From Candidatus Woesearchaeota archaeon (GTDB lineage Archaea; Nanobdellota; Nanobdellia; Woesearchaeales; JAFGUC01), in assembly GCA_016938695.1 (NCBI GenBank), contig JAFGUC010000043.1:183213-247212 (forward strand): a stretch of 64,000 nt of DNA, given 5' to 3'. The translations under genes and the position numbers were made by a program. Every line of letters begins with the position of its first letter. The stretch's first letter is position 1. This document shows positions 3,697-7,183 of this stretch, one piece after another. The notes beneath the pieces are model-generated. The model saw only the letters and a program-made list of their open reading frames with translations, made no database searches and was not told the DNA's origin.

Positions 3697-4593
3697 ATGA
3701 AAATAGGAAAATTAGACATAAAACCATTATTTGTAGCTCCAATGGCGGGTGTTTCAGACCCCGCATTTAGAACTCTTACAATAAGAAATGGATTTGGATT
3801 GGCTTTCACAGAAATGATTAGTGCTAACGCACTTTCTAGGCAAAATAATGCAACAATAAAACTTCTTGAAAGAACTCCTGAGGAAAAAATATTTGCACCA
3901 CAAATTTTTGGGCAAAATACTGAAAATATTGTAAAAGCTGCTAAGATATTAGAAGAAGAATATGACGCAAAATTAATTGATCTTAATTTTGGATGTCCTG
4001 CGTCAAAAATAATAAAACAAGGATCAGGATCTGCACTTTTAGAAAGACCAAACAAGATACGAGAAATCCTAAATGCAGTAGTTAAATCTAGCAATATTCC
4101 TGTAACTTGCAAAATAAGAACTGGAATTTCTAAAAACAAAATTAATGCTATTGAAATTGCAACAATTGCACAAGAAGAAGGCGTTTCTGCAATAACCGTT
4201 CATGCAAGAACGCAAAAGCAAGGATACAGTGGAACTGCAGATTGGAATATCATCAAACAAGTCAAAGAAAAAGTAAACATTCCAGTAATTGGCAATGGAG
4301 ATATCACAGGTCAAAAAGATATAGAAGCAATGACTGTGATGACTAAATGCGATGGTGTTATGATTGGAAGAGCAGCAATGAATAATCCTGCAATGCTAAT
4401 TGGAAAAAACAGCAATAACTTTGAAGAATACATAAAAATTATTGAAAAATATAATTTAGATATAAAATTTGCAAACATAAAAATTCATGCAATGTCTTTC
4501 TCAAAAGGTTTAAATCTTGGACCAAAAAGAAGACTAGAAATCACACAAGCAAAAACAATAGAAGAATTACAAGATTTACTCAGCAATTCCTAA
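3697..4593 (+). CDS. dus: tRNA-dihydrouridine synthase (Dus family)
   Basis: 298 residues forming the FMN TIM barrel of Dus enzymes: V-A-P-M-A-G-V-S-D at the N-terminus, L-N-F-G-C-P with the catalytic cysteine (about residue 100), K-I-R-T-G, V-H-A-R-T and G-N-G-D-I in the barrel, and M-I-G-R-A-A-M near the phosphate site. The helical RNA-binding domain follows. It reduces uridine to dihydrouridine in tRNA using NADPH and FMN. The final 18 bases overlap the convergent PHP gene. Confidence 0.93.
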   Translation: MKIGKLDIKPLFVAPMAGVSDPAFRTLTIRNGFGLAFTEMISANALSRQNNATIKLLERTPEEKIFAPQIFGQNTENIVKAAKILEEEYDAKLIDLNFGCPASKIIKQGSGSALLERPNKIREILNAVVKSSNIPVTCKIRTGISKNKINAIEIATIAQEEGVSAITVHARTQKQGYSGTADWNIIKQVKEKVNIPVIGNGDITGQKDIEAMTVMTKCDGVMIGRAAMNNPAMLIGKNSNNFEEYIKIIEKYNLDIKFANIKIHAMSFSKGLNLGPKRRLEITQAKTIEELQDLLSNS

Positions 4594-5271
4594 AAAGGAA
4601 TATAATTCTTCTAAATTATTATTTATTATTAAGTCAGGGGTCAATCCTATTCTTTCAGAATATAATTCAAGTTTAGAATCATCACCAATCTCGTGCAAAA
4701 AATGTGCATCAGAATTAACAATTACTTTTTTACCTTTTCTCTTAACTAAATCCAACATCAATTTCACATTTTCTACAGTCGAATCATTAAGATAAGACAA
4801 ATTTAATTCAGGTAAAATATTATGATCTAATGCAAACTCAACAACCTTCAAAAAATCAAAAGGCAATTTCAATGAATAAGGATGAGTAATTATTTTAACT
4901 GGATAATTTTTTAGAACTTCAATATAATTTTCAGTATTCTTCTCAAACCCATTATTACTTATTCCATTTGCATCTATATGTAGACCAACTAATAACAAAT
5001 CTAATTTGTTTAAAGCGCGTTCATTCAAATCAATTTTTCCATCATCAAGAATATTAGCTTCACAACCCCACAAAATTTTTAGATTATCAAAATGAGGTTT
5101 TCTAAAACCCATTAAAAAATTATGAATAGAAGTATAACCTAATGCAGGTCCGTGGTCAGTAATTGCAATTAATTTCAATTCTTTTTTTTGAGCTTCACTA
5201 ACAATATCGTAAAAACTACCATAAGCATGACCACTCATCAAACTATGAATGTGTAAATCTACATTTAACAT
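4576..5271 (-). CDS. PHP-domain metal-dependent phosphoesterase (YcdX-like)
   Basis: About 231 residues beginning with the PHP signature D-L-H-I-H-S, then A-I-T-D-H-G-P, a glutamate in W-G-C-E-A-N, I-T-H-P-Y and the final N-S-D-A-H. These supply the trinuclear metal site of PHP phosphatases (YcdX, HisK type). I take the ATG one base after the stop of the upstream gene, with GAGG about nine bases before it; the longer frame begins with TTG inside that gene. The tight junction indicates an operon with the Trm5-like gene. Substrate unknown. Confidence 0.85.
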   Translation of the reverse strand: MLNVDLHIHSLMSGHAYGSFYDIVSEAQKKELKLIAITDHGPALGYTSIHNFLMGFRKPHFDNLKILWGCEANILDDGKIDLNERALNKLDLLLVGLHIDANGISNNGFEKNTENYIEVLKNYPVKIITHPYSLKLPFDFLKVVEFALDHNILPELNLSYLNDSTVENVKLMLDLVKRKGKKVIVNSDAHFLHEIGDDSKLELYSERIGLTPDLIINNNLEELYSFLGIAE

Positions 5272-5272
5272 T

Positions 5273-7183
5273 TTATAAAACCTCAAAATCTACACAAACT
5301 CTATATGTGTGTGGAGCATGATCCCCACATTTGACCCAATCTAAAACCTTGAATTTAACTTTATTTCGTTCACAAGCCAGCTTAATCTTTAAGACAGCAA
5401 CGTCAGGAATTTCACCTAATTTCTCATTTAAAAAATCGTAAAAATGAACAACGGTTCCTTTCTTTGAAATTTTTAATGCGTCATCTAAAAAATCCTCTGC
5501 AGTCTTAGGTAAAGGCATTAAAACTCTATTAAATTTTTTAGGACCTAATTTTTGGTCTCTTAATTTACAAAATACCTCATAAGAATTTTGGTTTTCTGTA
5601 TACTCTTTAGAAAAATAATCCCACACTTCAATAACACCAAAATCAATAAAATTAATGACTTTAGATAAATCAATTATTCCTTTACCAATTTCACAAGCAT
5701 CTCTATCATCAGGATGATTTCCTGTGGTATCAGCAATATGAAAATACACATTAAAATATTTTTTAAATCCTTCAATAAGATGCTCAAAATATTCGTAATC
5801 TTGTTTTTTTGTTGGACAAAAATATTTAGAATAAATACAAGCATTAAATAAATGAACGATATCTAAAAGCATATTTTTTAATCCTGTTTTCTTTTGTATC
5901 TCTAAAAAGTCGTCTAAAGTTCTCAATGCACGTATTGAATTCTCAACGTACAAATACTGTTCAATATTATCTTTTTTATATTTCTTGAACAAATAAGAAA
6001 GATTTTTTACAACATTTTTCAAAAGCAAAGAGCATTCTTTTTCTGGCAAAACTGAACGTGATTGATTAGATAAATCATTTCCTTGCTTAAAATCATCAGC
6101 AATATGCAATCCAAAACCAACGACATTTCGTCGTTTGCATAAATCTAAAAATATTTTTATCTCTTCTTCAGTCGCTTTAAAATCATCCGCCGTCGTTCCT
6201 ACACCAATACTTTTATTCTTGAAAAAAGGAACGTGATGGAACATTACAAGCTTACCCAAAGATTCCAAATTATCACACGCTAAAAAAACATCAGATAATT
6301 TATTTTCCAATTCATCTGAAGATAATTGTAATTCTATTAGTTGAACTTCTGGATTCTTTTCCAGTACAATGTTTAAATTTGATAAACCACATTTTAATCC
6401 AACTGATAAGTTATTTAACTTAGGAACAAGATTTCTGACATCACCACAGTAAAGCTTCATATTTTTTATTTTATTAAGAGAAATATTTTCAACACCATAC
6501 AAATGCCCTTGAGGGTTTAATTCAATACCCATAACCGACTTTGCAGAAGTACTTTTGGAAATAACTAAAGAATATGGTGCACAACCAGAGAATAACTCCA
6601 TTACATCTTCATTTAGTTTAACTAATTCAGCAATACGCTTTCGTTCTGTCGATAATCTTGGAGAAAAATAAACATCCTCAACATTTAATTTCATTCGAAC
6701 ACCATTTTCTAGATAAACAGATTCTTTTGTATTTTCTCCTAAAACAAAATCCATGTTTTGTGTTCTAAATGTTCCAGAATGAATTCCTGATTTTTTTAGA
6801 ACTGTTTTAACATTCTTGTTGGTATCTAAAATTGCTTGAGCAATATGAATTGCACGATCATTAAATTTCTCATCAACTTCAATTATTGCAATAGAACCAA
6901 CAACATCAAATGCTAATTTTATTTCTGAAACTTCAGATTCATTAAAATGTTGCAATAAGATATCTTTGATATCAACAATTTTATTTTTTTTCTCAAATTC
7001 ACAATCAACTATTGAATAATTAAATTCAAAATTTAAAGAATCTAAAGAATAATTTTCAACTAAAGGAAAAGCAAAGCCATCATCTTGCTTTTGTGGAACA
7101 TACTCTAAATCCACCTGGTTTGAAGCAAATAATTTTCTCTTAAAATATTCAATATCCTTATACTCACATTTAAGACCATTCAT
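5273..7183 (-). CDS. Trm5/TYW2-type tRNA methyltransferase interrupted by a xylose-isomerase-like TIM barrel
   Basis: A 636-residue chimera. Residues 1-256 look like archaeal Trm5 (m1G37 methyltransferase): the N-terminal D1 domain, V-Y-F-S-P-R-L-S-T-E-R at 171-181, the AdoMet site E-L-F-S-G-C-A-P-Y and the acidic G-I-E-L-N-P, ending in D-V-R-N-L-V-P-K-L. Residues 545-636 resume Trm5 with F-N-R-V-L-M-P-L-P-K and the C-terminal strands. Between them, residues about 259-544 resemble an AP-endonuclease/xylose-isomerase TIM barrel (M-F-H-H-V-P, Y-V-E-N-S, D-I-V-H, H-I-A-D-T-T-G). The insert falls just after the fourth Rossmann strand, where ordinary Trm5 has a short loop. Methylation of G37 (or TYW2-like transfer) is inferred; the insert's reaction is unknown. 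No frame break is seen. Confidence 0.82.
   Translation of the reverse strand: MNGLKCEYKDIEYFKRKLFASNQVDLEYVPQKQDDGFAFPLVENYSLDSLNFEFNYSIVDCEFEKKNKIVDIKDILLQHFNESEVSEIKLAFDVVGSIAIIEVDEKFNDRAIHIAQAILDTNKNVKTVLKKSGIHSGTFRTQNMDFVLGENTKESVYLENGVRMKLNVEDVYFSPRLSTERKRIAELVKLNEDVMELFSGCAPYSLVISKSTSAKSVMGIELNPQGHLYGVENISLNKIKNMKLYCGDVRNLVPKLNNLSVGLKCGLSNLNIVLEKNPEVQLIELQLSSDELENKLSDVFLACDNLESLGKLVMFHHVPFFKNKSIGVGTTADDFKATEEEIKIFLDLCKRRNVVGFGLHIADDFKQGNDLSNQSRSVLPEKECSLLLKNVVKNLSYLFKKYKKDNIEQYLYVENSIRALRTLDDFLEIQKKTGLKNMLLDIVHLFNACIYSKYFCPTKKQDYEYFEHLIEGFKKYFNVYFHIADTTGNHPDDRDACEIGKGIIDLSKVINFIDFGVIEVWDYFSKEYTENQNSYEVFCKLRDQKLGPKKFNRVLMPLPKTAEDFLDDALKISKKGTVVHFYDFLNEKLGEIPDVAVLKIKLACERNKVKFKVLDWVKCGDHAPHTYRVCVDFEVL

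Follow-up and report, generated by a model that had tools for sequence, protein, structure and literature searches.

In the 64,000-nucleotide stretch of woesearchaeotal DNA analysed here (the window), a gene for a Trm5-type tRNA methyltransferase encloses a TIM barrel of the AP_endonuc_2 superfamily, placed in a loop that is short in other Trm5 proteins. Trm5 is an essential enzyme of translation fidelity, and it is unusual to see a second enzyme domain nested in it that passes between species at a single site without the host enzyme moving along. We consider with moderate confidence that the barrel is an accessory metal-dependent (phospho)hydrolase that has spread among trm5 genes of some tiny, uncultured archaea by homologous recombination. 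Such a gene would allow the origin, spread and decay of domain insertions, selfish or adaptive, to be studied, and it hints at a new hydrolase step in DPANN archaea that is connected with tRNA. In the open-access literature that we searched, no description of a barrel in Trm5 was found. New here are the conflicting trees, a mosaic gene, empty syntenic relatives and decayed metal sites.

A TIM barrel nested in Trm5

Positions 5273-7183 of the window, on the minus strand, form a single uninterrupted open reading frame of 636 amino acids with an ATG start. The outer parts of the protein match Pfam TRM5-TYW2_MTfase (PF02475; 4.8e-37, in two stretches) and TYW2_N_2 (PF25133; 5.9e-15), and Foldseek aligns the whole model with P. 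abyssi Trm5b (5yac; 2.8e-26), so that both the TRM5/TYW2 methyltransferase domain and the N-terminal D1/D2 domains of a Trm5 are present. The sequence relatives of these parts in the PDB are 5yac, 5wt1 and 2yx1. The best NCBIfam match is Trm5b (1.9e-56), with 191.6 bits against an equivalog cutoff of 600, and Taw22 scores 163 bits against a cutoff of 550, so that neither is reached. We read the protein as a Trm5-type m1G37 tRNA methyltransferase (residues 1-256 and 549-636) enclosing a barrel of about 290 residues. The N-terminal part (residues 1-256; 6416..7183, minus strand), defined by the Pfam, Trm5b, PDB and Foldseek matches just given, holds a D1-like domain and the first half of the class I methyltransferase fold. 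The barrel occupies about residues 257-548 (5540..6415, minus strand), as placed by PF01261, the fold model, Foldseek and the PDB profile of 5zhz. The C-terminal part (residues 549-636; 5276..5539, minus strand) begins with strand 4, whose MPLPK motif corresponds to NPPY, takes in the remainder of the methyltransferase domain, and is delimited by separate matches to 549-636 in barrel-less relatives and by the 5yac alignment. A first-pass annotation, made from the window sequence, had put the insert at residues 259-544; the barrel itself stands and its limits have shifted slightly. The protein resembles archaeal Trm5b and Trm5a/Taw22 (5yac, 5wt1, 2zzn) in its D1-like, D2 and class I methyltransferase domains, its catalytic-region residues and its single copy, whereas the solved Trm5 structures are without a 290-residue barrel before strand 4.

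Taken alone, the insert of the window copy matches AP_endonuc_2 (PF01261) at 1.6e-5 and 25.2 bits, below the gathering cutoff of 31.1 bits, and the same profile is matched by 15 of 19 homologous inserts (best 2.4e-12). Given aligned sequences of 19 relatives with the barrel and 13 without it, AlphaFold2 modelled the whole chain with a mean pLDDT of 91.6 and a pTM of 0.83, and the barrel modelled alone reached a pLDDT of 86.7. Two folds are predicted at high confidence, and a single novel fold across all residues was not seen. By fold and profile, the barrel is a member of the AP_endonuc_2/xylose-isomerase-like superfamily. PF01261, Foldseek and the alignment of relatives thus uphold the earlier view that a barrel of the AP-endonuclease or xylose-isomerase type lies in frame inside the Trm5 Rossmann domain, at a normally short loop.

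A survey of relatives confirmed the insertion point: in 22 of 22 aligned fused sequences the insert lies in the same loop, flanked by the GDV(K/R)xxxP helix and the FDRIxMPLPK strand; 32 aligned barrel-less Trm5 proteins have only 2-8 residues (about 3) at this place. Matches in the 60 relatives searched either span the whole length (fused, with frames of 535-647 aa) or fall into two parts, 1-257 and 549-636, with few residues separating them. In the class I methyltransferase topology, strand 4 is preceded by a loop on the side of the sheet that faces away from the SAM site. A complete metal-dependent barrel nested there would find room as a folded domain, since the loop would lie opposite the SAM and target face of the Rossmann sheet.

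The barrel profile was matched in 28 of 353 genomes of the same order, 26 times within Trm5 and twice in free-standing form (G301 and G330); two of the 26 (G412 and G413) are present as fragments, lying at the ends of contigs or spread over different frames. A narrower profile search of genome contigs gave six barrel loci, all from Woesearchaeota/Nanoarchaeota, and the named relatives are metagenome-assembled genomes of these groups. One Trm5-like match each was counted in the window's genome (G000) and in the fused genome G010, a single contig of 1.3 Mb, and the gene appears to encode the sole Trm5-type enzyme of the cell. The window's genome is a draft of 85 contigs with an estimated contamination of 5.4%, which might raise the thought of an assembly or binning artefact; we regard this as next to impossible, given that identical architecture and junction are found in more than 20 independent assemblies, including G010. 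The recurrence rules out an assembly join or chance, and the frame can be read through as a real domain insertion, as the first-pass annotation had it.

The predicted metal site of the barrel, and its relatives

Residues K264, E284, H317, H360, E414, D441, H482, G516, E519 and E530 are invariant across 19 barrels, and H444 is nearly so. In barrel alignments (all positions on the minus strand), K264 lies at the end of barrel strand 1 (6392..6394), E284 in strand 2 (6332..6334) and E530 in the C-terminal barrel helix (5594..5596). The predicted metal ligands, with their counterparts in endonuclease IV (Nfo), are H360 (6104..6106; H109), E414 (5942..5944; E145), D441 (5861..5863; D179), H444 (5852..5854; H182), H482 (5738..5740; H216), E519 (5627..5629; E261) and, assigned by motif, H317 or the neighbouring H316 (6233..6235; H69), one alignment placing the same His one column off. 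Seven of the nine Nfo ligand positions are thus matched by motif, and the D229/H231 pair only partly, with a different loop spacing; an extra His, Asp or Glu near the strand-7 loop is usual in the fused copies, also at a different spacing. The conserved set is common to fused barrels, two free-standing archaeal barrels and one free-standing bacterial barrel: in these shallow alignments K264, E284, H360, E414, D441, H482, E519, E530 and the strand-3 His are kept in all three. In close pairs of family f7 (f-numbers are anonymous codes for families) the dN/dS of the barrel is 0.15-0.26, within the range of the flanks, and by this measure the barrel is under purifying selection. Because the metal-ligand residues are conserved, a second catalytic function in the barrel is plausible; to this extent the earlier proposal of a bifunctional enzyme holds, although the step in wyosine chemistry offered with it is not supported. 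Cleavage of nucleic acid by the barrel is possible.

The ligand set is not kept everywhere. In the Trm5 proteins of G021 (L048:1494-3254, minus strand) and G303 (L127:1758-3413, plus strand) a barrel-like insert is retained and most metal ligands are lost, and these two decayed barrels, the only such copies in the set examined, show that some lineages can dispense with barrel activity. They are what would be expected if the barrel were mainly structural or tRNA-binding, its catalysis no longer relevant, but the remaining fused copies that were examined have kept nearly all of the ligand residues, and we find this explanation quite improbable.

Within the superfamily, the profile of endonuclease IV (5zhz) matches the barrel at 9.6e-5, and Foldseek with the barrel alone places UVDE (3bzj) first, followed by xylose isomerases, which together with sugar epimerases make up most of the list. 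NCBIfam matches among the barrels are to CbiR in four members (best 5.3e-9), nfo in three and uvde in one. All are far below the family cutoffs: for CbiR (NF041277), the two members with printed bits score 21.7 and 24.7 against a cutoff of 105, and for endonuclease IV (TIGR00587; cutoff 129.65 bits) the best barrel member has an E-value of about 1e-3. Consequently, the barrel appears to belong inside the superfamily, yet in none of the nfo, uvde and CbiR families. It resembles the phosphodiesterases (endonuclease IV, CbiR and UVDE) more closely than the sugar isomerases. With endonuclease IV and UVDE, its nearest PDB matches by profile and by structure respectively, it shares the fold and, by motif, the His/His/Glu/Asp/His/His/Glu ligand positions; it differs from both in the invariant Lys of strand 1 and Glu of strand 2, in the spacing of the strand-7 ligand loop, in its low family scores and in being fused into an RNA methyltransferase. 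CbiR, which also belongs to this superfamily, is a metal-dependent, cobamide-remodelling phosphodiesterase with a cofactor as its substrate (PMC7733943); it provides the best NCBIfam match among the barrels, although those with printed bits fall well short of its cutoff.

The prevalence of xylose isomerases and sugar epimerases in the Foldseek list, the annotation of the bacterial free-standing relative as a sugar phosphate isomerase/epimerase, and the action of CbiR on a cofactor would all agree with a small-molecule enzyme, either a sugar or sugar-phosphate isomerase/epimerase or a CbiR-like hydrolase, for which Trm5 is only the carrier. We consider this unlikely, though deserving of some weight, since the added ligands H317, H360 and H444 are those of the endonuclease IV/UVDE type, the sequence matches favour phosphodiesterases, and the insertion occurs in a single tRNA enzyme, which points to a functional link. 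A barrel that replaces a missing endonuclease IV was rejected: most genomes give weak Nfo-like matches whether or not they have the barrel, and the nfo cutoff is passed in 1 of 60.

According to the hydrolase reading that we prefer, a single Trm5-type polypeptide would methylate N1 of G37, and possibly also imG-14, while its barrel would work as a metal-dependent hydrolase. A phosphodiesterase or phosphatase is the likeliest kind, its probable substrate being a phosphate ester of tRNA, of a tRNA-derived molecule or of a nucleotide held by the same chain. The barrel would bring a conditional benefit, would pass between species through homologous recombination of the flanking trm5 sequence, and would be lost or decay where it is not needed. 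Counted against this explanation are the split of fold similarity between nucleases and sugar isomerases and the distance of the named-family matches from their cutoffs.

The free-standing relatives of the barrel are at L051:4168-4899 (minus strand, G301), L110:1501-2280 (minus strand, G330) and L133:4983-5762 (plus strand, a Pontibacillus megaplasmid). They are not adjacent to trm5, so that the substrate of the barrel need not be tRNA. The archaeal ones lie within a few kb of histidyl- and valyl-tRNA synthetase-like genes, named from sequence. Elsewhere in the window's genome (contig C20), L057 (64-2022, plus strand) encodes a 652-aa protein with the AP_endonuc_2 profile in two far-apart pieces, which suggests another barrel with a large internal insertion; and in G046, whose Trm5 is barrel-less, an Nfo-like barrel match (G046:C41:7382-7762) falls in an open frame of 637 aa, possibly a different barrel fusion.

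Apparent gain, exchange and decay of the barrel

Presence of the barrel is patchy: filled and empty Trm5 copies are mixed within families and even within genera. In family f42, G314 and G160 are filled, and the barrel is missing from G240, G127, G420 and G041, the last of which shares its genus with G314. Filled and empty copies lie at the same locus, in the order EndA-wHTH-FEN1-EamA-Trm5, the genes upstream of trm5 being named from sequence only.

The histories of barrel and host enzyme disagree. The barrel of G314 is 75% identical to f41 barrels and 30% identical to that of G160, whereas the methyltransferases of these two genomes share 62% identity in the N part and 75% in the C part and group together with support of 100/99. 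Forcing the G314 and G160 barrels to be sisters was rejected (AU p 5e-15); the converse constraint, which joins the G314 methyltransferase with f41, was not (AU p 0.15), as expected if part of its flank came from f41. The barrel and methyltransferase topologies also reject each other (delta lnL 188 and 351; AU p 2e-6 and 1e-8), and this conflict disfavours a single-origin, vertical-only history.

G314, the one gene in which recombination was worked out in detail, is a mosaic, being f42-like over residues 1-163, f41-like over 164-498 and f42-like again from 535 to the end. Informative sites switch at about residue 164 and revert between 498 and 535, with a permutation value of 1 of 2000 that is optimistic because test sites and criteria were picked after sliding-window identities had been seen. 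By these sites the tract is a transferred barrel with about 80 residues of its left flank, and binning does not account for it, since the mosaic lies inside one gene on one contig. Judged from such comparisons, the barrel acts like a cassette that can be exchanged within an essential gene, and appears to have been repeatedly gained, swapped and left to decay between relatives by within-gene recombination.

Part of this pattern recalls inteins and homing elements, with which the barrel shares a fixed site in an essential gene, a patchy distribution, transfer with flanks and decayed copies. Unlike them, it stays in the mature protein. An intein or intron was rejected, as the frame is kept in fused copies, the junctions are not of the splicing type (KLNNL and KKFNR in the window copy, similar in others) and there is no Pfam match to a HINT domain. 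A viral, phage or plasmid origin was also set aside: no relative of the barrel was found in viral contigs or phages, neither PHROG nor PADLOC gave a match to the barrel (a mad2 match in PADLOC is to the methyltransferase fold), and one distant free-standing relative is on the Pontibacillus megaplasmid.

A selfish nuclease that drives its own copying into trm5 alleles without a barrel, the filled allele serving as repair template and the flanks being co-converted, and that stays unspliced in a tolerated loop, would explain the single fixed site beside a conserved motif of an essential gene, presence and absence within family and genus at a syntenic locus, the G314 transfer with flanking DNA, repeated acquisition as indicated by the tree tests, the intact, decayed and empty states side by side, and the nucleases among the nearest folds. 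Ordinary homologous recombination with selection gives the same pattern, however; the ligands are retained through long vertical stretches (f7 and f69), the solo relatives stand away from trm5, no viral or phage relatives were found, and we know of no homing endonuclease of this fold. We therefore hold homing-like behaviour to be improbable, and slightly more so in its specific form, a non-spliced mobile domain in which an endonuclease-IV-fold nuclease occupying a permissive Trm5 loop invades barrel-less alleles by cleavage and co-conversion. If it were true, a full cycle of gain, decay and loss would be visible among living species.

The methyltransferase and the wyosine question

In the window copy, the METHYLTRANSFERASE looks intact, and comparison with relatives indicates that Trm5-invariant residues are retained. 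P557 (5513..5515, minus strand) aligns with P260 of P. abyssi Trm5a/Taw22 (5wt1), where M. jannaschii Trm5b has N265; in the bifunctional Trm5a/Taw22 this proline leaves space for imG-14 (PMC7761594). The Pro that replaces N265 in the strand-4 motif, a feature shared with Trm5a/Taw22, is therefore present, as a single feature in a protein that falls short of the Taw22 equivalog cutoff, and it is invariant in 32 relatives, fused and unfused alike. Since relatives share P557 whether or not they are fused, and since the window's genome has Taw1, this Trm5 could have dual m1G37/imG2 activity, which would then belong to the methyltransferase and not to the barrel.

The suggestion that the barrel adds a wyosine-related step was not supported. 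Taw1 above cutoff occurs in 7 of 9 barrel-bearing genomes as against about 40 of 51 barrel-less ones, and was not found above cutoff in the fused genomes G040 and G015; the barrel does not track with Taw1, which most relatives have with or without it, and the residue relevant to wyosine, P557, sits in the methyltransferase.

Downstream of trm5 in the window, and overlapping its end by about 14 bases, is a PHP-type phosphoesterase-like open reading frame (4576-5286, minus strand), named from sequence; the overlap suggests co-transcription of the two genes. The PHP-type frame was not seen downstream of trm5 in the f42 loci inspected. Relatives in the order have MPLPK in Trm5 instead of MNLPK/NPPY (window 5513-5515), a hint that many of these DPANN archaea may have a dual specificity like that of Taw22.
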